From the NCBI RefSeq assembly GCF_900156535.1, contig NZ_FTNV01000002.1, positions 186,001 to 250,000 of the forward strand: DNA of 64,000 nucleotides, given 5' to 3'. Source of the stretch: Roseovarius nanhaiticus. GTDB taxonomy: Bacteria; Pseudomonadota; Alphaproteobacteria; Rhodobacterales; Rhodobacteraceae. Positions 2,367 to 43,508 of this stretch are shown one piece after another (position 1 is the first letter of the stretch; each line of letters begins with the position of its first letter). The translations under genes and the position numbers were made by a program. The notes beneath the pieces were generated by a model. The model saw only the letters and a list, made by a program, of their open reading frames with translations. It searched no databases and was not told the DNA's origin.

Positions 2367-4988
2367 TCAGAACCGCTCCAGCAGCCGCTCCAGATAGTCG
2401 CGCTCGACCTCGGGCCGCGCGCCCTCGCCCGAGCGACGGCGCAGCTCGTCGAGTAGCTCGCGGGCGCGACGATAGACATCGTCGCCCTGCAAAAGATTGC
2501 CTTCCGTGCCCGCGCGATCGCCCTGACCGGGCGTGCGGCCCAGCGGATCGGATTGCTGGCCGCCGGTGGCGCCGCTGGCCTGCCCTTGCCCGCCCTGCCG
2601 CTGGCCCGACTCCTCGGCCATCGCCTCGCCCAGGTTGCGCATGCCGTCGCGTAGTGCGTCCATCGCCTCGGCCTGTCGGTCGATCGCACCGGCCAGATCA
2701 TTCTGGCGCAGCGCCTCCTCGGCCCCGTCCATCGCCTCACCCGCGCGGTCGAGCGCGCCGCGCGCGGCGTCCGCCGCCTCGCCACTGCCGGGCAGGCTGC
2801 CGCGCTGGCGCTCCAGCTCCTGGCGCAGCGCCTCTTGGCGCGCGGCCAGATCGCCGGGCTGGCCGCCGCCCTGCCCGCTTTGCTCCTGCTGGCCCTCGCC
2901 ACCATTGCTCTCGCCGTCGCCGCTCTGGCTTTGGCCTTGACCGCCCTGGCCCTCGTGGCTCTCGCCCCGGCCCTGACCGCCGTTGCGACCCTCATTGCCC
3001 TGGCTCTGACCCGCCTGCGCGCCGGGATTGAACTGCTCCTGCAGATCGCGGAACGCCTGGTCCGACAGGCCCTGCTGCTCGCGCAGCGTATCGGCCAGCC
3101 CCTCCATGGCCTGCTGGCCGGGGCTGCCCTCGCCCTGACCGGGCTGGCCCTCGGTCACGCGCAGGTTCTCCATCATCTCCTGAAACTGGCGCAGCGCCTC
3201 TTCGGCCTCGGCCATGCGGCCTTCCTGCATCAGCTCTTGGATGCGGTCCATCATGTCCTGCAAGTCTTGCTGGCTGAGCATGGTCATGTTCTGATCGCCT
3301 TGGTCAGGCTGATCCGTGCCGTTCTCACGCTGTGCCTGCTGGGATTTCTGGCGCAGGTAATCATCGGTCGCATCGCGCAATTCCTGCATGAGGCGCGCGA
3401 CCTCATCCTCGCTCGCGCCGTTGCGCATCGCCTCGCTCAGCCGCTCCTGCGCCTCGCGCATCCGCTCGAGCGCGTCGCCGATATCGCCATCCTCCAGCGC
3501 CACGGCCAGATCCCACAGCGCCTGCGCCAACGCGTCCCGCGTCTCGGGCGTCAGGCCATCCGCATCCAGCGATGCCTCCAGACGGCGCAGAATGGTCCGC
3601 AACTTCAGGAAGTCGGCAGGATCGCGAAAGAGCTTTTCCTCGGGCTGGTACGACACCGCCCGGATCACCTGCGCCACGCGGCGCCCGTTCTCGCGGCTCC
3701 ACAGCAGGTCGCGCCGCTGCTCGATGATGGCTGCCGCCAGCGGATCAAAGAAACGCCGCGCGGGCAGCTCCATCGGCATTGGCGCGCTGCTGCCCGTCTG
3801 TCCCGCCGCATCCTCGGCGGTGATGGTCAGCGTGACGGGCAGATGCGCCCAAGGGTGCTCGGACAGGTTCTCGACCAGCGCCTCGGTGAAATCGGTCCGG
3901 TCGCCGGTAATGGGCAGCGGAAGGTCCAGCGCGATCGGCTCGCGCGGCTCGGGCGCGGGGGCAAGGCCATAGCGCCGGTCGACTGCATTCAGATCCAGCG
4001 CGAAAGTCGCGCTGCCGCCGACAACGCCGTAATCATCCGTGGCCGCATAGGGCTGGCTCATCTGCCCGTCGAACGTGGTCTTGGCCCCCTCGGCCAGCAC
4101 CTGCGCCGTCGGCGCAGCATCCTCGACCGCGCGCACATCCCAGCTGCGCCCGCCCGGCCCGTCGATGGTCAGGACGCCGTCCTGCACCACGTCAAAGCCC
4201 TGCGCCGCATCCGTCGCCGCGTCCAGATCATCGGTCCGCCCCGAAACCGTCTCGGTCAGGGTCAACGCGCCCAGCTCGCCATATAGGCGGATCATCACAC
4301 GGCTGCCCTCGGGCACCGCGATCTCGGTGCCTTGATCGGCCAGGTAGAGGGTCGGCAGGCCCGTATAGACCGGCGGCTCGATCCAGCCCTCCCATGTCGG
4401 CCCGCTGGCCAGAGCAGCGCCCGAAGGTCCCAGCGGCACGGGCGAGGCCAGGCGCAGGACCGAGCCGAAAAGCATGGCAACGACCAGCCCCAAAAGGGCG
4501 ATGTAGCGCAGCCCAAACGGATCGAGCCGCGCGACCTTGAGATCAGGCGACGGCGCGCGTGCCTTGGCGGCAGCCTGCTCCATCCGGCTGCGATGCGCGG
4601 CCCAGAGCGCCTCGGAGGCGGCATCGCCGCGCCCGATGGCCTGCGCGTCGCCCAGTGCCTGAAGCGGGCGTCCGGGCAGTGCGGCATCCAGCCGCGCCAG
4701 CGCCTCGCCCCGGCGGGGCCAGCGGAACCGTGCGAGCCCGACGACCAGTAGCGCAAGCGCCCCAAGGCCCACCGCAATGGCCGAACCGATGATCAGCTCA
4801 TAGGACAGAAAGTCCGGCAAGCCCATCATCAGCGCCCCCGCAACCGCGATCAGCAGCGTCCAGAGCGGCCAGAAGGCGCGCACCAGACGCTCGGCCAGAA
4901 GTCCGGCCCATGTCAGGGTCAGCGGCCTGCGCAGACGCGCGGCCAATGGTCCTGTCAGCTTGGACGCCTGATGGGGGTTCTGGGCCAT
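2367..4988 (-). CDS. TIGR02302-type (DUF4175) low-complexity membrane protein
   Basis: 873-residue protein of a family seen in alphaproteobacteria. Two or three hydrophobic segments lie in the first ~190 residues (about 35-90 and 160-185), followed by a large domain and a C-terminal half rich in Gln, Gly, Glu and Arg with coiled-coil character (about 480-840). A GGAGAGG ribosome site precedes the ATG at 4988. It sits 28 bases downstream of lysA and probably ends the argH-lysA operon. The biochemical role is not established. The repetitive composition creates long antisense frames, which I treat as shadows. Confidence 0.85.
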   Translation of the reverse strand: MAQNPHQASKLTGPLAARLRRPLTLTWAGLLAERLVRAFWPLWTLLIAVAGALMMGLPDFLSYELIIGSAIAVGLGALALLVVGLARFRWPRRGEALARLDAALPGRPLQALGDAQAIGRGDAASEALWAAHRSRMEQAAAKARAPSPDLKVARLDPFGLRYIALLGLVVAMLFGSVLRLASPVPLGPSGAALASGPTWEGWIEPPVYTGLPTLYLADQGTEIAVPEGSRVMIRLYGELGALTLTETVSGRTDDLDAATDAAQGFDVVQDGVLTIDGPGGRSWDVRAVEDAAPTAQVLAEGAKTTFDGQMSQPYAATDDYGVVGGSATFALDLNAVDRRYGLAPAPEPREPIALDLPLPITGDRTDFTEALVENLSEHPWAHLPVTLTITAEDAAGQTGSSAPMPMELPARRFFDPLAAAIIEQRRDLLWSRENGRRVAQVIRAVSYQPEEKLFRDPADFLKLRTILRRLEASLDADGLTPETRDALAQALWDLAVALEDGDIGDALERMREAQERLSEAMRNGASEDEVARLMQELRDATDDYLRQKSQQAQRENGTDQPDQGDQNMTMLSQQDLQDMMDRIQELMQEGRMAEAEEALRQFQEMMENLRVTEGQPGQGEGSPGQQAMEGLADTLREQQGLSDQAFRDLQEQFNPGAQAGQSQGNEGRNGGQGRGESHEGQGGQGQSQSGDGESNGGEGQQEQSGQGGGQPGDLAARQEALRQELERQRGSLPGSGEAADAARGALDRAGEAMDGAEEALRQNDLAGAIDRQAEAMDALRDGMRNLGEAMAEESGQRQGGQGQASGATGGQQSDPLGRTPGQGDRAGTEGNLLQGDDVYRRARELLDELRRRSGEGARPEVERDYLERLLERF

Positions 4989-5016
4989 TCACCTCTCCGG
5001 ATGGGACCGCAGCGCG

Positions 5017-6282
5017 CTACAGCCATTCGGGGATGGTATCGCGATTTATCATCTCGTCAAAGGTTGGCCGCGCCCGGATCACGGCAAAGTCATGCCCATT
5101 CACCAGCACCTCCGGAATGAGCGGGCGGGTGTTGTATTCGCTGGACATTACGGCGCCATACGCGCCCGCGCTGCGAAACGCGACCAGATCACCGGCGGAA
5201 AGCCGCGGCATCATGCGCTGCTTGGCAAAGGTATCGCCGCTTTCGCAGACCGGGCCGACGATGTCATAGGGCTGCTGCTCAGCGCCTGCCTCAGGCTCGA
5301 TCACCGGCACGATATCGTGCCATGCGTCATACATGGCGGGCCGGATCAGATCGTTCATGGCGCCGTCGAGGATCAGGAAATCGCGGCCCTCGCCGGATTT
5401 GACGTAGATGACCTCGCTCACCATCAGCCCCGCGTTTCCCGCAATCAGGCGCCCCGGCTCGATCTCGATCTCGCAGCCCAGATGGCCCAGCGTTTCGCGC
5501 ACCAGCGCGCCGTATTCCGTGGGCAGCGGCGGCGCCTCGTTCCCGCGCGTGTAGGGGATGCCAAGGCCGCCGCCCAAATCGAGGCGGCGGATGTCATGGC
5601 CGTCCGCACGAAGCGTTTCGGTCAGCTCGGCCACCTTCTGATAGGCCAGGCGAAACGGCTCGAGTTCGGTCAGCTGGCTGCCGATATGCACGTCGATGCC
5701 GATCGCCTCAAGGCCGGGAAGGTCCGCCGCCAGTTGGTAGACCTCGCGCGCCCGCGCGATCGGGATGCCGAACTTGTTCTCGCTCTTGCCGGTGGCGATC
5801 TTGGCATGGGTCTTGGCGTCCACGTCGGGATTGACGCGCACCGTGATCGGCGCGACGACGCCCAGCTCGACCGCGACGGCACTCAGCACTTCCATCTCGG
5901 GCTCGCTCTCGACATTGAACTGCCGAATGCCCCCCGTCAGCGCCAGGCGCATCTCATCCCGGGTCTTGCCGACACCGGAAAAGACGATGCGCTCGCCCGG
6001 TACACCCGCCGCCTTGGCGCGCATGTACTCGCCGCCAGATACCACATCCATCCCCGCGCCCAGCCGCGCCAGCGTCTTGAGGATGGCGACATTGCTGGCC
6101 GCCTTCATCGCGTAGCAGACAAGGTGATCCATGCCCGCCAGCGCCTCGTCGAAGAGGCGGAAATGCCGCTCGAGCGTGGCGGTCGAATAGACGTAGAACG
6201 GCGTGCCGACCGCTGCCGCGATTTCGGCCACGGGCACATCCTCGGCATGCAGCACGCCGTCCTTGTAGAGAAAATGATCCAA
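5017..6282 (-). CDS. lysA: Diaminopimelate decarboxylase
   Basis: PLP enzyme converting meso-diaminopimelate to lysine, the last step of lysine synthesis, in the cytoplasm. The 421-residue length is typical. The cofactor lysine is K60 in CYAMK, and the active-site CESGD motif begins at C346. A glycine-rich phosphate-binding loop and the HIGSQ motif are also present. The start is a TTG at 6282 with GGGAAGG 7-8 bases upstream; the longer frame to 6444 runs back through intergenic sequence that holds a dispersed repeat. It follows argH, a lipoprotein and a DUF2834 gene on the same strand. Confidence 0.95.
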   Translation of the reverse strand: MDHFLYKDGVLHAEDVPVAEIAAAVGTPFYVYSTATLERHFRLFDEALAGMDHLVCYAMKAASNVAILKTLARLGAGMDVVSGGEYMRAKAAGVPGERIVFSGVGKTRDEMRLALTGGIRQFNVESEPEMEVLSAVAVELGVVAPITVRVNPDVDAKTHAKIATGKSENKFGIPIARAREVYQLAADLPGLEAIGIDVHIGSQLTELEPFRLAYQKVAELTETLRADGHDIRRLDLGGGLGIPYTRGNEAPPLPTEYGALVRETLGHLGCEIEIEPGRLIAGNAGLMVSEVIYVKSGEGRDFLILDGAMNDLIRPAMYDAWHDIVPVIEPEAGAEQQPYDIVGPVCESGDTFAKQRMMPRLSAGDLVAFRSAGAYGAVMSSEYNTRPLIPEVLVNGHDFAVIRARPTFDEMINRDTIPEWL

Positions 6283-6312
6283 ACTGCGCCTTCCCGCACC
6301 GCCCGTTGCGGC

Positions 6313-6335
6313 TTCATCTTGGCAAAAATACTCGA
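6313..6335 (+). repeat. Copy of dispersed ATACTC repeat (partial)
   Basis: Short intergenic element reading TTCATCTTGGC-AAAAATACTC, lying between the lysA start and the DUF2834 stop. It matches the heads of the copies at 17511, 25768, 48319 and 59208, but the CGCC-GNN-GGCG hairpin tail is degenerate here. Confidence 0.6.
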
Positions 6336-6346
6336 AAATCCGGCGC

Positions 6347-6652
6347 TCAGCCCTTGCGCAGGCGGAGGTACAAATAGAGCGGCAATCCGCAACTGACCCC
6401 GATGCAGAAAGTCGCAGGCACTGCCAGAAGGCGCATCCAGTCACGACTCCGCCACGTCTCGACCAGCACCCAGAGAGTCAGAGCAACTGCGGCGATGGTC
6501 AGATCCCAGACCAGCCCGCTGGTGGCGGCGTTGGCGTGCCATGCGTCGACCATGCCGCCCAGATCGAAGCCGTTCTCCATGAACCAGCGCAGGAAATAGG
6601 TCATCGGATGGATGGTGCCCCAGACGGCGAGGGCCAGGAAAACGTATCTCAC
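6347..6652 (-). CDS. DUF2834 family small membrane protein
   Basis: 101-residue integral membrane protein with three hydrophobic stretches (about 1-22, 45-65 and 72-95). The N-terminal pattern with a proline at the end of the first helix and the FMENGFD loop fits DUF2834. The start ATG overlaps the stop of the upstream lipoprotein gene (ATGA), so they are co-translated. The function is unknown. It sits between argH and lysA without an obvious metabolic link. Confidence 0.8.
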   Translation of the reverse strand: MRYVFLALAVWGTIHPMTYFLRWFMENGFDLGGMVDAWHANAATSGLVWDLTIAAVALTLWVLVETWRSRDWMRLLAVPATFCIGVSCGLPLYLYLRLRKG

Positions 6653-6825: not shown

Positions 6826-8213
6826 TTCAAAATCTCCTGCCAACGCGCCAATTGCGCGCGCACATTATCGGGCGCCGTGCCGCCATAGCTGACACGGCTC
6901 GCGACGGAATTATGCACGCCCAGCACGCCGAATACATCCCCCGTGATCGCCGCATGCACGCCTTGCATATCCTCAAGGCTCAGATCCGGCAGATCGCACC
7001 CCTTCTTCTCGGCCAGCGCCACCAGCGATCCGGTAACATGATGCGCGTCGCGGAAGGGCATGTTCAGCACCCGCACCAGCCAGTCGGCGAGGTCGGTTGC
7101 GGTTGAAAATCCGGTCGCGGCGGCGGCCTCCAGAACCTCGCGGTTCGCGCTCATGTCGCGCACCATGCCCTCCATCGCGGCCAGTGCCAGCATCAGGTTG
7201 TCGGCGGCGTCGAAAACCTGCTCCTTGTCCTCCTGCATGTCCTTGGAATAGGCCAGCGGCAAGCCCTTCATCACAAGCGTCAGCGCAACATTGGCGCCAA
7301 AGATGCGTCCGATCTTGGCGCGGATCAGCTCGGCGGCGTCGGGGTTCTTCTTTTGCGGCATGATGCTGGAGCCGGTCGAGAAACGGTCCGACAGGGCCAC
7401 GAAACGGAATTGCGCCGAGGACCAGATCACCAGCTCTTCGGCCATGCGGCTGAGGTGCATGGCGCAGATGCTGGCCATCCCGAGGAACTCCAGCGCGAAA
7501 TCCCGGTCGCTGACCGCATCCAGAGAGTTGGCCGCGGGCCGGTCAAAGCCCAGCGCCTGCGCCGTCATGTCGCGGTCGATGGGAAAACTGGTCCCCGCCA
7601 ATGCCGCCGCCCCGAGCGGGCATTCGTTCATCCGCGCCCGCGCATCGCGCACCCGGCTGAGGTCGCGGGCGAACATCTCGACATAGGCCAGCATGTGATG
7701 ACCCCATGTGACCGGCTGCGCGACCTGCAGATGGGTAAAGCCCGGCATGACCCAATCCGCGCCCGCCTCGGCCTGCGCGACAAGTGCGCGCATCAACGCC
7801 TCCAGCGCCGTCTCGCAGGCATCCAGCTGATCGCGCGTCCAGAGACGGAAATCCGTCGCCACCTGATCGTTGCGCGAGCGGCCCGTATGCAGGCGCCCCG
7901 CAGGCTCGCCCACGATTTCCTTTAGGCGGGCCTCGACATTCATGTGAATATCCTCAAGCGCGGCGGAAAATGCGAAATCTCCGGCCTCGATCTCGGCCAG
8001 AACGGCATCCAGCCCTTCCGTCATCGCCTTGGCGTCGCTATCTGTAACGATGCCCGTTGCTGCCAACATGGCGGCATGGGCCTTCGATCCTGCGATGTCC
8101 TGAGCCGCCATCCGCTTGTCGAACCCGATCGAGGCGTTAATTGCCTCCATAATCGCATCGGGTCCGGCGGCGAAACGGCCGCCCCACATCTGGTTCGAAG
8201 TCTTGTCTGCCAT
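6822..8213 (-). CDS. argH: Argininosuccinate lyase
   Basis: Cytoplasmic enzyme splitting argininosuccinate into arginine and fumarate, the last step of arginine synthesis. The 463-residue length is normal. The fumarase/aspartase-superfamily signature [12 protein letters not shown] sits at about residue 280-291, with the catalytic serine in its flexible loop. [11 protein letters not shown] and the conserved TAATDLADW-like region are also present. It is the first gene of a minus-strand run that continues with a lipoprotein, DUF2834 and lysA. Its start is only 22 bases from the divergent tlpA start. Confidence 0.97.
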
Positions 8214-8235
8214 GCCCGTATCCTTCGGAGGAAAT

Positions 8236-8847
8236 ATGCGCCTGTCACGTTCCGCTCTGCTTTATCCCGCCGCTGCCTTGGGTGCAATCGCGGTGGGGGC
8301 TTTCGTCCTCTTCGGCGGTGCGCCGGGGGCGGCGACGGATGCCCAGTTGCGCGATTATTCCGCGCTTCAGGCCCAGCTTGATGGCGACATGAAGAAGCTC
8401 AACTTCCACGCCGAGCCCAAGGCGATCTCGGCCAGCAGCTTCATCATGGAGGACGGCAGCGAGGCGACCCTGGCGCAGTACGAGGGCAAATATGTCCTGC
8501 TGAACTTCTGGGCCACGTGGTGCGCGCCCTGCCGCAAGGAGATGCCGATGCTGTCCGAGCTTCAGACCGAATTCGGCGGCGGGGATTTCGAGGTGGTCAC
8601 ATTGGCCACGGGGCGCAATGCGGTGCCGGCGATCGAGGATTTCTTTGCCGAGATCGGCGTCGAGAACCTGCCGATGCACCGCGACCCCAATCAGCGCGTC
8701 GCACGCGACATGGGGGTTCTGGGCCTGCCCATCACGGTGATCATCGACCCCGAGGGCCGCGAGGTGGCGCGCCTGCAGGGCGATGCACATTGGAGCAGCG
8801 ATAGCGCCAAGGCGCTGATCGCGGGGTTGGGCGATAAGGACCAGTAG
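8236..8847 (+). CDS. TlpA-type thiol:disulfide interchange protein
   Basis: Membrane-anchored periplasmic thioredoxin-like reductase of the TlpA/ResA type. Residues 1-30 form an uncleaved or cleaved signal anchor. The thioredoxin fold follows from about residue 65, with FWATWCAPC giving the redox pair C96/C99 and a cis-proline (GLPIT) near 172. The ATG at 8236 has an excellent GGAGGAA ribosome site, so the longer frame from 8116 inside argH is rejected. Such proteins reduce apo-cytochromes or copper-site cysteines; the target here cannot be read from context. A hairpin terminator follows. Confidence 0.9.
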
Positions 8848-8874
8848 CGCAGCGCGCCGCGTGCCGGGAAGCTT

Positions 8875-8922
8875 GACGAGGGGCCTGTCACCTGCCCTTA
8901 TGGTGGCAGGCTCCTCGTTTAT
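8875..8922 (+). terminator. Rho-independent terminator after tlpA
   Basis: Long imperfect hairpin: GACGAGGGGCCTGTCACC pairs with GGTGGCAGGCTCCTCGTT across a 9-base loop, followed by TTTATTT. It lies 28 bases after the tlpA stop. Confidence 0.85.
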
Positions 8923-9095
8923 TTCGGGCCGGGCGCGCGGCTTGCAGCGCGCCTCTCATTTGCATGACGTTCAAACGGCCCACCGCGTCCGAACACAGCG
9001 CCCGTTCCTCGGCCGTGACCCATCATCCGGTCCGGCCGGACGCGGAAAACCAGCGGCCATTCAGATCTCCGGGCGCGCACCGAAAGGTTTGGCCC

Positions 9096-10574
9096 ATGGA
9101 TATCGCCCTGATCCAGACGCACCCCTGTGATCTGATCCAGCTTCTCAAGACATTGCGCACCAAACTGCCGCGCGCCCTTGTTGATCGCGTCAGCGATCTG
9201 GACCTCACTCCAGATGCCGATCTGCCCCGGCAAATCGGACATCTGCCGGATGCGACCGAGGAAGAGGAGGCGCGGCTGATCGCCGCGCTCGATGCGCTGG
9301 GAGAGAAGGCGCTGCAAGTGCAGCGCGGGACACTTGTCGTCCAGATCGCGCCCGCCGAGGTCCGGATGGAGACACGGATGGATATCGGGGCCATCGTCGA
9401 TCTGCTCCGCCCCGATCTGGCGCATGTCGGCGCCCTGCCGCGCGGCGCGGCCGAGGATATCTGGAAAACGGTTCTCGAGCGCACCGCCAGCGGCGTCCCT
9501 TTTCCACAGGAAGGCTACGAGGGCGAGCACGCCAAGGCCTATGCCAGCATCATTCAGCAGTTCGACGGCTTCGTGCCGCATGAGGATGGCGGCCGCCATC
9601 TCAAGCCTTCGGACATGGATCGCCTCAAGCGCCATAGGATCAAACGACATGTGTGGACTGAGGTTACAGCCGATCTGCACGAGATCCTGACCCATTTTGT
9701 GGTCGCGCGCGAATGGCTGGATTCAGGCGGCAAGCTGCGCAACTACACGCGCGACCAGATGTTCGCCAAGTTGGGTTTCATGGTGGATCTGAACAATAAA
9801 TACGGGCTCTGCAAAGAGAGCGCGAAAGTGCCGTTATCCCTCGACATCGCAGCTGCCATAACCGGCAAATTGCTGATGGTGGCCAACCCGTCCGTCGGCT
9901 TTGCGTTCGGCATGCTCTGGAAGGTCGTCGCGGCTCAGAGGCCCGGGGGCGGCGAGGTCAAGGCAAAGATCGCCGAGATGCATGCGGCGCTGTTCGAGGT
10001 ATTCGAACAGACCATCCAGACGCTAGAGCAAGCGCTGATCGCGTTGGTCGCCGATTGGGGAAACCTTATCACTTTTGTTGCCGCAACCCAGAGCGGCGCG
10101 ATAGACTGGCCAGACGATGCCATGCCGTTGCGGCGTGCGCATGCCGTCGGCTATCACACCGCCTGCCTGATGACCCTGATGAAGCTGAAATCGGATACCG
10201 AAACCTATAAATCCAGCCTCGACAGTCACATGTGGGGGGTCGTGCAATACAGCCAGCAGTGCAGCGCCACAAAGCGGCATTACGAAGAAGGCAAGGGCAT
10301 ATTACGTGGCAAATCGACCGAGCCGGACTGTCTTGGCGGGCGGTGGAATTACAGTTGGTTCTTCGGCAACGTCCACACATCCCCCGGCAGCGGCTACGGC
10401 CCGCCCCCGCCCAAGATCAAACTGGCCCCGGCGGCGCTGGCCAACAAGCTGTTCCTCGATGGCACGGATAGCGATCCGGGACTGGGGCTCTCGACGCATT
10501 TCTTCGACAAGCCGGACACGCGCGCAGCGTGGCAGCTCCATTCGGTGCGCACCAAACTGGCCGGCACGATCTGA
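9096..10574 (+). CDS. Unrecognised 492-residue protein
   Basis: I do not recognise this family. Starting at the ATG at 9096 (AAAGG about 10 bases upstream), the product is 492 residues, without signal peptide. Residues 1-245 are largely helical and charged. One weakly hydrophobic stretch at about 248-280 is flanked by predicted helices (to about 330). The last third contains scattered cysteines (C357, C389, C412), an aromatic WNYSWFF motif near 417 and a Pro-run at 436-439. It is a single-gene unit between the tlpA terminator and lldD. A soluble protein able to insert a helical hairpin is conceivable but unproven. Confidence 0.6.
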   Translation: MDIALIQTHPCDLIQLLKTLRTKLPRALVDRVSDLDLTPDADLPRQIGHLPDATEEEEARLIAALDALGEKALQVQRGTLVVQIAPAEVRMETRMDIGAIVDLLRPDLAHVGALPRGAAEDIWKTVLERTASGVPFPQEGYEGEHAKAYASIIQQFDGFVPHEDGGRHLKPSDMDRLKRHRIKRHVWTEVTADLHEILTHFVVAREWLDSGGKLRNYTRDQMFAKLGFMVDLNNKYGLCKESAKVPLSLDIAAAITGKLLMVANPSVGFAFGMLWKVVAAQRPGGGEVKAKIAEMHAALFEVFEQTIQTLEQALIALVADWGNLITFVAATQSGAIDWPDDAMPLRRAHAVGYHTACLMTLMKLKSDTETYKSSLDSHMWGVVQYSQQCSATKRHYEEGKGILRGKSTEPDCLGGRWNYSWFFGNVHTSPGSGYGPPPPKIKLAPAALANKLFLDGTDSDPGLGLSTHFFDKPDTRAAWQLHSVRTKLAGTI

Positions 10575-39743: not shown

Positions 39744-40754
39744 ATGACCCAAGCGCATAAACGTAGCGGCGGCCCCGGCGCGCTGAACCTGATCACCGAT
39801 GTCGCGGGGCTCCGTGTCGGCAATGCAGCCGATGCGCGGATCAAGAGCGGCGTCACGGTTCTGTGCGCAGACACACCCTTCACCGCCGGCGTGCATGTGA
39901 TGGGCGGCGCGCCCGGCACGCGCGAGACGGACCTGCTCGCGCCGGACCGCACGGTGCAACAGGTCGATGCGCTGGTCCTATCGGGCGGCTCGGCATTTGG
40001 GCTGGATGCAGCGTCGGGTGTTGCGGACGCGCTGGCGGCGGAGGGGCGCGGCTTTGCGGTGGGCGCAGCGCGCGTGCCCATTGTGCCGGGCGCGATCCTT
40101 TTTGATCTGTTGAATGGCGGCGACAAGGATTGGGCCGAAAACCCGTATAAGCGGCTGGGGCGCGAGGCGTTCAAGGCGCAGGGTGCGCAGTTCGATCTGG
40201 GCAGCACGGGCGCGGGTGCGGGCGCGCTGACTGCAACTCTGAAAGGCGGGCTTGGGTCGGCGTCCTTTGTGCTGCCCTCGGGCCATACCGTTGGCGCACT
40301 GGTTGCGGTGAATGCGCTGGGGTCGGCGACCGTGGACTCGGGGCCACATTTCTGGGCCGCGCCGTTCGAAATCGCAGGCGAGTTCGGCGGATTGCGCGCG
40401 GCGCAGGAATTTGGGGAGGTTCACACGCCGCGCACCAAGATGGACGGCGGCAACACGACGATCGCCATCGTTGCCACCGATGCCGCGCTCGACCAATCGC
40501 AATGCACGCGTCTGGCCATCGCGGCGCATGATGGTATGGCGCGGGCGCTGATCCCGTCTCACACGCCGATGGATGGCGATCTGGTCTTTGGGGTCAGCAC
40601 TGGCGCGCGGCCTCTTGAGGATGCGTCCGGCGCTGTGCTGCTGGGCCATGCCGCGGCCACCTGCCTTGCCCGTGCCATCGCGCGGGCGGTCTATCTGGCG
40701 CGTCCCGCGCCCGGTGACGTCATGCCCTGCTGGCGCGACCAGTTTGGTCGCTGA
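39744..40754 (+). CDS. P1 (DmpA-type, S58) family aminopeptidase
   Basis: 336-residue N-terminal-nucleophile hydrolase of the DmpA/BapA group. These split themselves into two chains; the break is expected in MDGGNTTIAIV, before a threonine at about 238. LITDVAGLRVGNA at the start and VDALVLSGGSAFGLDAASGV near 75 are family signatures. An alternative ATG at 39735 adds three residues; neither has a strong ribosome site. The substrate (beta-peptides or N-terminal D/L amino acids) is open. It diverges from creatinase. Confidence 0.85.
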   Translation: MTQAHKRSGGPGALNLITDVAGLRVGNAADARIKSGVTVLCADTPFTAGVHVMGGAPGTRETDLLAPDRTVQQVDALVLSGGSAFGLDAASGVADALAAEGRGFAVGAARVPIVPGAILFDLLNGGDKDWAENPYKRLGREAFKAQGAQFDLGSTGAGAGALTATLKGGLGSASFVLPSGHTVGALVAVNALGSATVDSGPHFWAAPFEIAGEFGGLRAAQEFGEVHTPRTKMDGGNTTIAIVATDAALDQSQCTRLAIAAHDGMARALIPSHTPMDGDLVFGVSTGARPLEDASGAVLLGHAAATCLARAIARAVYLARPAPGDVMPCWRDQFGR

Positions 40755-40853
40755 GGGGCCGCGAAGATGCCTCGGAACGCGCCACACTTGCGCGCCGCGG
40801 CGTTAATCGGGATAAGACCACCGTCCGAACCCGCATAAAGGCCCGCATCGACC

Positions 40854-41966
40854 GTGTTCACCTCCCTGCCCCGCCTCGGCGCCCGCGTCATCGCCCTGCT
40901 CCTTCTGCTGCTGGCAACCCTGCCCGCCACCGCGCAGAACAGCGACGTGCCGATCCCCGAGATGGACATCCAAGGGCCGCTGGTCTTCTTGACCAAGGAA
41001 TCGCCGCCCTTTTCCTTTGTCGGCGCAAATGGCGCGTGGAGTGGGATCACCATCGACGCCGTGACCAATATCGCAAGCGATCTGGGCTATGAAGTCGAGT
41101 GGCGCGAGGACACGCTGCCCGGCATGCTGAGCCAGGTCGAGGCGGGCACGGTAGACGGCGCCGCCGCTGCGATCACCATCACCCCGGCGCGCGAGGCCGA
41201 GCTGGACTTTACCTTTCCCTTCTACACGACCGGCCTTGGCATCGCGATCGACCCCGATGCAGGTAGCGGATGGCTGCAAGTCGTCCGCAACATGTTCACA
41301 TGGCAATTCGCCGTTGCCATTGCCACGCTTTCGACCGTGCTCCTGATCGCGGGCGCGGCGATGTGGTTTTTCGAGCGCGGCCATAACGAAGAATTCCCTC
41401 GCGATCCGGTTCAGGGGCTCGGCGACGGCTTTTGGTGGGCGGCGGTGACGATGACCACCGTTGGCTATGGCGACAAGGCGCCGCGCACTCTGGGCGGACG
41501 CATCGTGGGGCTGATCTGGATGTTCACCGCGATGCTGATCGTCGCCAGCTTTACCGCTGCCATCGCCGCCTCGCTGACTGTGGGCAGCCTCGGCAATCCG
41601 ATCCAGGGCGTGACGGACCTGAAGAATTACCGCATCGGCGTCGTCGAGAACAGCACCGGCGCGGACGAGATGGTGGGCCGCGGCATCCGCATCAGCCGCT
41701 ATGACGGCCCGCGCGAAGCGCTCGACGCGCTGGTCGCGGGCGAGGTCAGTGCCTTTGTCTATGACCGGCCTTTGATGCAGTGGATCGTCACACAAGAATA
41801 CGAGAGTGACATCCGTATCCTTGAGGATGAAATCGGCCGCCAGGACTATGGCATCGCGCTGCCCACCGATTCCGAGCTGCGCGAGCCGATGAACCGCGCG
41901 CTGCTGAGTTATCTGCGCACCGATGCCTGGAGCCGGGTGCTCGACAGCTATGTACCGGGCCGCTGA
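40854..41966 (+). CDS. GluR0-like ligand-gated potassium channel
   Basis: 370 residues. A signal peptide (1-27) is followed by the first half of a periplasmic-binding domain (about 40-135, with ITPAREAELDFTFPFY including the ligand-binding Arg113). Then come a membrane helix (about 150-172), a re-entrant pore loop with the K+ filter TVGYGD at 202-207, a second helix (about 214-242), and the second half of the binding domain (about 245-368). This is the split layout of prokaryotic ionotropic glutamate receptors such as GluR0. It should be a tetrameric ligand-gated K+ channel; the ligand is unknown. No transporter partners are adjacent. Confidence 0.9.
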   Translation: MFTSLPRLGARVIALLLLLLATLPATAQNSDVPIPEMDIQGPLVFLTKESPPFSFVGANGAWSGITIDAVTNIASDLGYEVEWREDTLPGMLSQVEAGTVDGAAAAITITPAREAELDFTFPFYTTGLGIAIDPDAGSGWLQVVRNMFTWQFAVAIATLSTVLLIAGAAMWFFERGHNEEFPRDPVQGLGDGFWWAAVTMTTVGYGDKAPRTLGGRIVGLIWMFTAMLIVASFTAAIAASLTVGSLGNPIQGVTDLKNYRIGVVENSTGADEMVGRGIRISRYDGPREALDALVAGEVSAFVYDRPLMQWIVTQEYESDIRILEDEIGRQDYGIALPTDSELREPMNRALLSYLRTDAWSRVLDSYVPGR

Positions 41967-42038
41967 GGCGGTCCGGCTGGACAAGCCGACTGCAAGGTGC
42001 TTTGCCTTGCAGCAGAGACAATCGAAAGGATGCATGAC

Positions 42039-43508
42039 ATGAGCACGACAGATCTCAAATCTTTGCTCAAAGACCCCGGCCTGCTGGCCGACAAGGCCTA
42101 TGTGAATGGCAAATGGGTCAGCGGTGACAAGACCTTCGACGTGACGAATCCCGCGCGCGGCGACGTTATCGCGCAAATGGCCGACCTCAGCCGCGATCAG
42201 GTGGCCGAGGCGATCGCCGCAGCCGAGAAAGCCCAGAAAGACTGGGCCAAGTGGACCGGTAAGGAGCGGGCCGCCGTCCTGCGCAAATGGTTCGACCTGA
42301 TGATGGAGCATCAGGACGACCTGGGCACCATCATGACCGCCGAGCAGGGCAAGCCGCTGGCCGAGGCCAAGGGCGAAATCGCCTATGGCGCGTCCTTCGT
42401 CGAATTCTTTGGCGAAGAGGCCAAACGCGTCTATGGCGAGACGATCCCCGGCCACCAGCGCGACAAGCGCATTATGGTCATCAAGCAGCCCATCGGCGTT
42501 GCCGCCTCGATCACGCCCTGGAACTTCCCCAACGCGATGATCACCCGCAAGGCCGCGCCTGCGCTGGCCGCAGGCTGTGCCTTCGTGGGTCGCCCCGCTG
42601 CCGAGACACCGCTGAGCGCCACTGCCTTGGGTGTGCTGGCCGAGCGTGCGGGCATCCCCGCAGGCGTCTTTAACATCGTGACCTCATCGCGCTCCTCCGA
42701 CGTCGGCAAGGAATTCTGCGAGAACCCCGCCGTGCGCAAGTTGACGTTTACCGGGTCGACCGAAGTGGGCCGCATTCTGCTGAAGCAGGCCGCCGACCAG
42801 GTGATGAAATGCTCGATGGAACTGGGCGGCAACGCGCCCTTCATCGTGTTCGACGACGCCGATCTCGATGCCGCCGTCGAGGGCGCCATTATGTGCAAGT
42901 TCCGCAACAACGGCCAGACCTGCGTCTGCGCCAACCGGATCTATGTGCAGGCCGGCGTCTATGACGCCTTCGCGGAAAAGCTGAAGGCAGCCGTCGAAAA
43001 GCTGAAGATGGGCGACGGCATGGAAGAGGGCGTGAACCTCGGCCCGCTCATCAACAAGGACGCGATCACCAAGGTGCAGGAGCATGTCGCCGACGCCAAG
43101 TCCAAGGGCGGCAAGGTCATCCTGGGCGGCGGCGAACCGGCGCAGCGCGAGGGCAACTTCCTGCCGCCGACCATCATCACCGGCGCGACGCAAGAGATGC
43201 AGGTCGCCACGGACGAGACGTTCGGGCCTCTGGCGCCGCTCTTCAAGTTCGATGATGTGGACGATGTGATCGCGATGGCCAATGACACAATCTTCGGCCT
43301 TGCCAGCTATTTCTACGCCAAGGATCTGAGCCGCGTCTACAAGGTGGCCGAGGCGCTGGAATACGGCATCGTGGGCGTGAATACGGGGATCATCTCGACC
43401 GAGCTGGCGCCCTTCGGCGGCGTCAAGCAGTCGGGCCTTGGCCGCGAAGGCAGCCATCACGGCATCGAGGACTATCTCGAGATGAAATACATCTGCATGT
43501 CGGTCTGA
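42039..43508 (+). CDS. gabD: NAD(P)+-dependent succinate-semialdehyde dehydrogenase
   Basis: 489-residue aldehyde dehydrogenase. Catalytic Cys295 lies in GQTCVCANR and the general base Glu261 in MELGGNAPF. The cofactor loop and the C-terminal LGREGSHHGIEDYLEMKYICM ending fit GabD, converting succinate semialdehyde to succinate in GABA or polyamine breakdown. Other aldehyde substrates are possible. AAAGGA at 42025 decides the start at 42039. It follows the GluR0-like channel by 72 bases; a functional link to GABA/glutamate sensing is tempting but unproven. Confidence 0.88.
   Translation: MSTTDLKSLLKDPGLLADKAYVNGKWVSGDKTFDVTNPARGDVIAQMADLSRDQVAEAIAAAEKAQKDWAKWTGKERAAVLRKWFDLMMEHQDDLGTIMTAEQGKPLAEAKGEIAYGASFVEFFGEEAKRVYGETIPGHQRDKRIMVIKQPIGVAASITPWNFPNAMITRKAAPALAAGCAFVGRPAAETPLSATALGVLAERAGIPAGVFNIVTSSRSSDVGKEFCENPAVRKLTFTGSTEVGRILLKQAADQVMKCSMELGGNAPFIVFDDADLDAAVEGAIMCKFRNNGQTCVCANRIYVQAGVYDAFAEKLKAAVEKLKMGDGMEEGVNLGPLINKDAITKVQEHVADAKSKGGKVILGGGEPAQREGNFLPPTIITGATQEMQVATDETFGPLAPLFKFDDVDDVIAMANDTIFGLASYFYAKDLSRVYKVAEALEYGIVGVNTGIISTELAPFGGVKQSGLGREGSHHGIEDYLEMKYICMSV

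Follow-up and report, generated by a model that had tools for sequence, protein, structure and literature searches.

Channels that couple a bacterial ligand-binding domain to a K+ pore are of modular origin, combining a binding protein with an inverted K+ pore, according to one account (PMC6385376). According to Zhang et al. 2026 (PMC13099474), GluR0 of Synechocystis allows E. coli deficient in K+ uptake to grow again, exposes both halves of its ligand-binding domain outside the cell, depends on these halves, and slows shrinkage 70-150 ms after a KCl upshock, with an effect of glutamate. Ger et al. 2010 (PMC2950845) state that L-glutamate is contacted at its alpha-carboxyl group by an Arg in the first half of this domain (S1) and at its alpha-amino group by an Asp in the second half (S2), and that neither residue varies in Groups 1 and 2 of the prokaryotic ionotropic glutamate receptors (iGluRs). 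A search of an open-access library for such a channel in Roseovarius retrieved no publication.

We analyzed a gene in a stretch of 64,000 nucleotides from Roseovarius nanhaiticus (hereafter, the window), which a first-pass annotation had read as a GluR0-like ligand-gated K+ channel with a split binding domain, two helices and a TVGYGD pore loop. Pfam searches and a structural model confirm this layout, and the predicted function is supported by the domains, the K+ filter, the Arg/Asp pair, the fold and the similarity of the gate motif. The gene (40854-41966, plus strand) is a single intact frame of 370 aa without internal stops, starting at GTG 40854, the first start after the in-frame stop (the stop-to-stop frame is 375 aa). 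Along the protein, a hydrophobic leader, by eye a probable signal peptide, is followed by S1, M1, the TVGYGD pore loop, M2 and S2, as listed below in full-length numbering (residue numbers of the model refer to the mature protein and were shifted by +27).

40854..41966, plus strand: whole gene, prokaryotic iGluR with a K+-type pore, 370 aa (ORF, Pfam, model, fold match)
40854..40934, plus strand: hydrophobic leader at the N terminus, residues 1-27, a probable signal peptide (by eye from the sequence)
40968..41273, plus strand: S1, first half of the ligand-binding domain, about residues 39-140 (Pfam SBP_bac_3, 2pyy alignment, model)
41190..41192, plus strand: R113, predicted alpha-carboxylate-binding Arg (aligned with an Arg of 2pyy and GluA2; R in 96/96 rows)
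41301..41375, plus strand: first transmembrane helix, M1, residues 150-174 (helix H123-147 of the mature-protein model)
41406..41474, plus strand: pore helix and selectivity filter, residues 185-207 (sequence; Ion_trans_2; TxGYGD in 89/96 rows)
41457-41474, plus strand: TVGYGD filter, residues 202-207 (sequence)
41490..41585, plus strand: second transmembrane helix, M2, residues 213-244, which contains the gate-like motif SFTAAIAASLTV (model; profile alignment)
41586..41954, plus strand: S2, second half of the ligand-binding domain, about residues 245-367 (Pfam, alignment, model)
41763..41765, plus strand: D304, predicted alpha-amino-binding Asp (D in 96/96 rows; aligned with an Asp of 2pyy and a Glu of GluA2)

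Five Pfam families match the protein above their curated cut-offs, namely, SBP_bac_3 (E 2e-21; a split domain over residues 47-367, flanking Lig_chan/Ion_trans_2), Lig_chan (E 1.9e-17), Ion_trans_2 (E 8.9e-15), Lig_chan-Glu_bd (E 4e-8) and Ion_trans (E 2.2e-8), so that the domain assignment is far beyond chance. Lig_chan had no match in 14 well-known control genomes, and the channel, which is single-copy, is its sole match in the host genome. At the protein level, five further hits in this genome have only weak scores (E 3.7e-8 and higher); none extends over more than one half of the binding domain, which is the pattern that ordinary binding proteins should give. Scans of 40650-42120 identified no sigma-70-like sites and three terminator-like sites, all of these within the channel gene.

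The AlphaFold2 model, built from alignment A1 (63 sequences, the window protein first, with the leader removed), has a mean pLDDT of 92.5 and a pTM of 0.78, and consists of two alpha/beta lobes separated by M1 (150-174), the pore helix (185-201) and M2 (213-244). Judging by the model helices and the protein length, there are two membrane helices with an intervening pore loop, and neither an M4 helix nor an N-terminal domain. The pore loop carries a K+ channel selectivity filter, TVGYGD at residues 202-207, with Ion_trans_2 over its cut-off, and 89 of the 96 aligned rows retain TxGYGD (87 T[VI]GYGD and two TTGYGD). In Foldseek searches with the model, AMPA-receptor chains rank first (E 2.5e-22). 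For a profile of the 63 relatives, the best PDB match (E 4.5e-58) is the ligand core of a bacterial iGluR, 2pyy. The profile also covers the S1-M1-P-M2-S2 portion of the AMPA receptor GluA2 in a single alignment, in which SFTAAIAASLTV at the end of M2 is paired with SYTANLATFLTV, the gate motif of the animal receptors.

The comparison of the predicted structure with GluR0 that the first-pass annotation had suggested bears out its reading, with the ligand-core fold matching those of Nostoc (2pyy, Z 27.5, rmsd 2.2 over 212 residues) and Synechocystis (1ii5, Z 27.1, rmsd 2.3 over 218 residues) in VIA-align, both solved with L-glutamate bound; 1ii5 was compared by structural score only, and the residue register was read against 2pyy. 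The GluR0-type identity of the channel is strongly supported: the architecture and fold agree, the K+ filter is present, the Arg and Asp for the ligand are conserved, and the gate motif is similar. Its assignment as a further member of the known Group 1 of prokaryotic iGluRs, those with a K+ filter, is well supported, and the kind itself is not new, having been described in cyanobacteria and in many bacteria besides. The full explanation, namely, a GluR0-type channel of the inner membrane that is gated by an alpha-amino acid and conducts K+, is very probably correct.

The alpha-carboxylate-binding Arg, on whose presence the first-pass annotation had staked this reading, was looked for and is present: both R113 and D304 are invariant in all 96 aligned rows. 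In the profile alignment, these residues are in register with an Arg and an Asp in 2pyy; in GluA2, their counterparts are an Arg and a Glu, the latter of which binds the ligand amino group. Most likely, therefore, the ligand is an alpha-amino acid, and glutamate is a plausible and leading candidate. The engineered glutamine-binding protein 8eyz, of the amino-acid ABC-transporter type, scores as well (Z 27.6) as the two GluR0 cores, all three being tied within 1 Z unit, which assigns the ligand part to the amino-acid-binding type, with the fold alone equally compatible with glutamate and glutamine. Given this tie, glutamine or some other amino acid may be the ligand. A K+ channel tuned to a non-glutamate amino acid, such as glutamine, serine or alanine, is a reasonable possibility, if one that we lean against: the first S2 loop positions (residues 265-270) vary within the family, which, like the fold tie, favors such tuning, but 2pyy, the nearest solved relative by profile, holds L-glutamate. 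GluR0 itself reportedly takes several amino acids, and its complex with serine is said to have been solved.

A pattern scan of GTDB contigs, with one genome per species, yielded 238 stretches, of which 221 encode a relative; 80 were kept, and these come from many proteobacterial families and several other phyla. The first-pass description of such receptors as rare in characterised proteobacteria is thus true of functional studies but not of their occurrence. In a tree of 91 rows, the window protein groups with eight orthologues from its genus (support 100/100), followed outward by Tranquillimonas (100/95) and then by Palleronia and other roseobacters (15 rows, 100/100); further out are other Pseudomonadota, Balneolota, Ignavibacteriota, Acidobacteriota, Chlorobiota and others. 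The channel is uncommon in the class to which the window belongs, where, in an even draw, 9 of 385 genomes have a match at E<=1e-40. At E<=1e-20, a search of 72,556 plasmid records also detected relatives on 18, all below 60% identity. Among the 15 plasmid rows listed, 11 are annotated as "transporter substrate-binding domain-containing protein", a name under which such channels are easily missed; two have no gene listed and two belong to unannotated records.

Within the genus, represented by 84 genomes (all among the 146 searched, as judged from genus counts), a K+-type orthologue is encoded in 10, and therefore the channel is dispensable; a distant receptor with 31-35% identity is found in 5. 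Seven of the 96 aligned rows, all from the same taxonomic family as the window, read NGGFEER in place of the filter. A pore that no longer works, leaving an amino-acid sensor that does not conduct, is accordingly worth weighing for the window protein, the more so as we found no functional data for any close relative; nevertheless, this is very improbable because the frame is open, neither the filter nor the pore helix nor the gate motif is damaged, all three are conserved across phyla, and identity to the genus orthologues is 65-76%. The preferred reading remains a K+-conducting channel.

The distant receptors with NGGFEER for TVGYGD (L016, L018-L022 and L024, from the genus and the family) keep the ligand Arg and Asp, and probably belong to the non-K+ "Group 2" type. 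One further protein, L017, clusters with them on a long branch but keeps TVGYGD. On a single MAG contig of the genus (L015/L023/L040), the channel frame is broken near residues 203-217 and the contig ends soon after, reflecting either an assembly error or a decaying gene. Another variation is seen in L146 (G222:C64), from a 1.9 Mb alphaproteobacterial genome, where four clustered genes, all on the minus strand (3939-5099, 5257-6471, 7481-8713 and 8747-9931), have the glutamate-receptor layout, with SBP_bac_3 and Lig_chan over the Pfam cut-offs. None of these has TVGYGD; the R113 column reads K, K, E and D, and the D304 column Y, S, N and S. The cluster also includes a thyX-type gene. Two genomes of the same family, G473 and G474, have 4 and 5 matches, respectively, and one of the same order, G323, has one. 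We consider these receptors an expanded, non-canonical set.

The gene next to the channel encodes, as the first-pass annotation had stated, a succinate-semialdehyde dehydrogenase (SSADH), with a TIGR01780 score of 708 bits over a cut-off of 646; against PRK11241, it scores 768 bits, below the 828 cut-off of that equivalog model. The dehydrogenase ORF is listed as 41997-43508, and the GTG start at 41997 is probably too early. The sequence suggests ATG 42039, after a purine-rich stretch, as the likely start, which leaves a gap of 72 bases to the channel. From this adjacency, GABA or glutamate had been proposed as the ligand, so that channel and gabD-type dehydrogenase would form a sensing-and-breakdown unit gated by either compound. 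Direct adjacency is indeed found in the window and in seven other genomes of the genus (L007-L013), that is, in 8 of the 10 that bear the channel. In another (L014/L026), the SSADH gene is 0.9 kb away and an opposite-strand ORF separates it from the channel; in the tenth (L015/L023/L040), the contig ends and the neighborhood is unreadable. Furthermore, SSADH is a core gene of the genus, present in 81 of the 84 genomes (72 of the 72 good ones), against 10 with the channel.

The gene order in the genus, kept where the contig is long enough, is M24 peptidase, DmpA-type peptidase, channel, SSADH and small heat-shock protein. Among 30 SSADH loci that were read, the channel is present in 9 and absent from 21, and these flanking genes persist in channel-less genomes: a DmpA-type gene is upstream in 13 of the 21, directly so in three (L113, L118 and L124), and the other 8 have none within the 1.5 kb examined. 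Outside the genus, a close SSADH copy is present within the examined flanks of none of 74 channel loci (61 of them with at least 3 kb on both sides), so the channel-gabD adjacency is not conserved there. When the 607 ORFs that lie up to about 4.5 kb from the channel in 80 loci (L025-L104) were clustered, there was no partner family in more than 9 of the 80, and the larger clusters look lineage-bound. Because SSADH is a core gene and channel-less genomes keep the flanks, the adjacency is inherited synteny around a core gene and is no evidence for a GABA ligand; in addition, the Arg/Asp pair would read an alpha-amino acid, which GABA is not. A sensing-and-breakdown unit is, accordingly, highly unlikely. 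The functional link between the channel and the dehydrogenase is unsupported, and we rejected it on the neighbor search (80 loci), the SSADH distribution (84 genus genomes) and the empty sites.

Several of the DmpA-SSADH intervals are occupied by a different gene. Inspection covered 12 intervals (L113, L118, L124, eight longer channel-less ones and L117, but not L122 and L128, two more channel-less loci that have the DmpA-type gene), and each of the nine longer intervals contains an opposite-strand ORF of 262-296 aa, which, by its motif, we take to have an alpha/beta-hydrolase look. This ORF is present at L026:7110-7950 and in the intervals of L115, L116, L119, L120, L127, L129, L133 and L134, and takes the place that in other species is either empty or occupied by the channel. 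In one locus outside the genus, L031, an aldehyde dehydrogenase that is 26% identical lies about 3.9 kb from the channel.

For the GluR0-type channel itself, we infer export, topology, assembly into a tetramer, K+ selectivity, the ligand and the physiological role. The inverted K+ pore would be built from four subunits, with the pore loop entering from the cytoplasm. R113 and D304 would hold a periplasmic alpha-amino acid, for which glutamate is the leading candidate; upon binding, the two-lobed domain would close and pull on M1 and M2, opening the pore to K+. The cell would thereby acquire a fast passive K+ conductance coupled to an external amino acid. The likely role, our best guess carried over by analogy from Synechocystis GluR0, would be fast adjustment of membrane potential or volume after an ionic or osmotic change. 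A receptor for an amino acid released by neighboring cells or algae, setting K+ flux and membrane potential directly, seems unlikely; if true, bacteria of this Roseovarius-like lineage would respond electrically to a molecule that acts like a transmitter. Overall, that this is a little studied but ordinary channel is well supported. Still, the genus offers a clean, single-copy GluR0-type channel, with flanking genes shared between channel-bearing and channel-less species, and hence a good natural setting for finding what bacterial glutamate-receptor channels do.

Compared with known systems, the window protein shares its layout with GluR0 of Synechocystis sp. PCC 6803 (slr1257), which likewise has a split SBP-type ligand domain, two helices and a GYG pore loop, and whose ligand core (1ii5) has a similar fold (Z 27.1) at 24% identity. 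It differs from that channel in coming from an alphaproteobacterial host and in that its ligand and role are predicted by analogy. The Nostoc punctiforme GluR0 core (2pyy) is the best PDB profile match, with Arg and Asp in register and Z 27.5 at 29% identity, the solved entry being the ligand core alone. The AMPA receptor GluA2 resembles the window protein in the S1-M1-P-M2-S2 order and in the gate motif; the differences are the K+ filter of the window protein and the absence from it of an N-terminal domain and of M4. With Group 1, as delineated by Ger et al. 2010 (PMC2950845), the window protein shares the ligand halves around two helices, the K+ filter, and the Arg and Asp; to the 12 Group 1 proteins in their table, it adds an extra one, from a Roseovarius-like bacterium.
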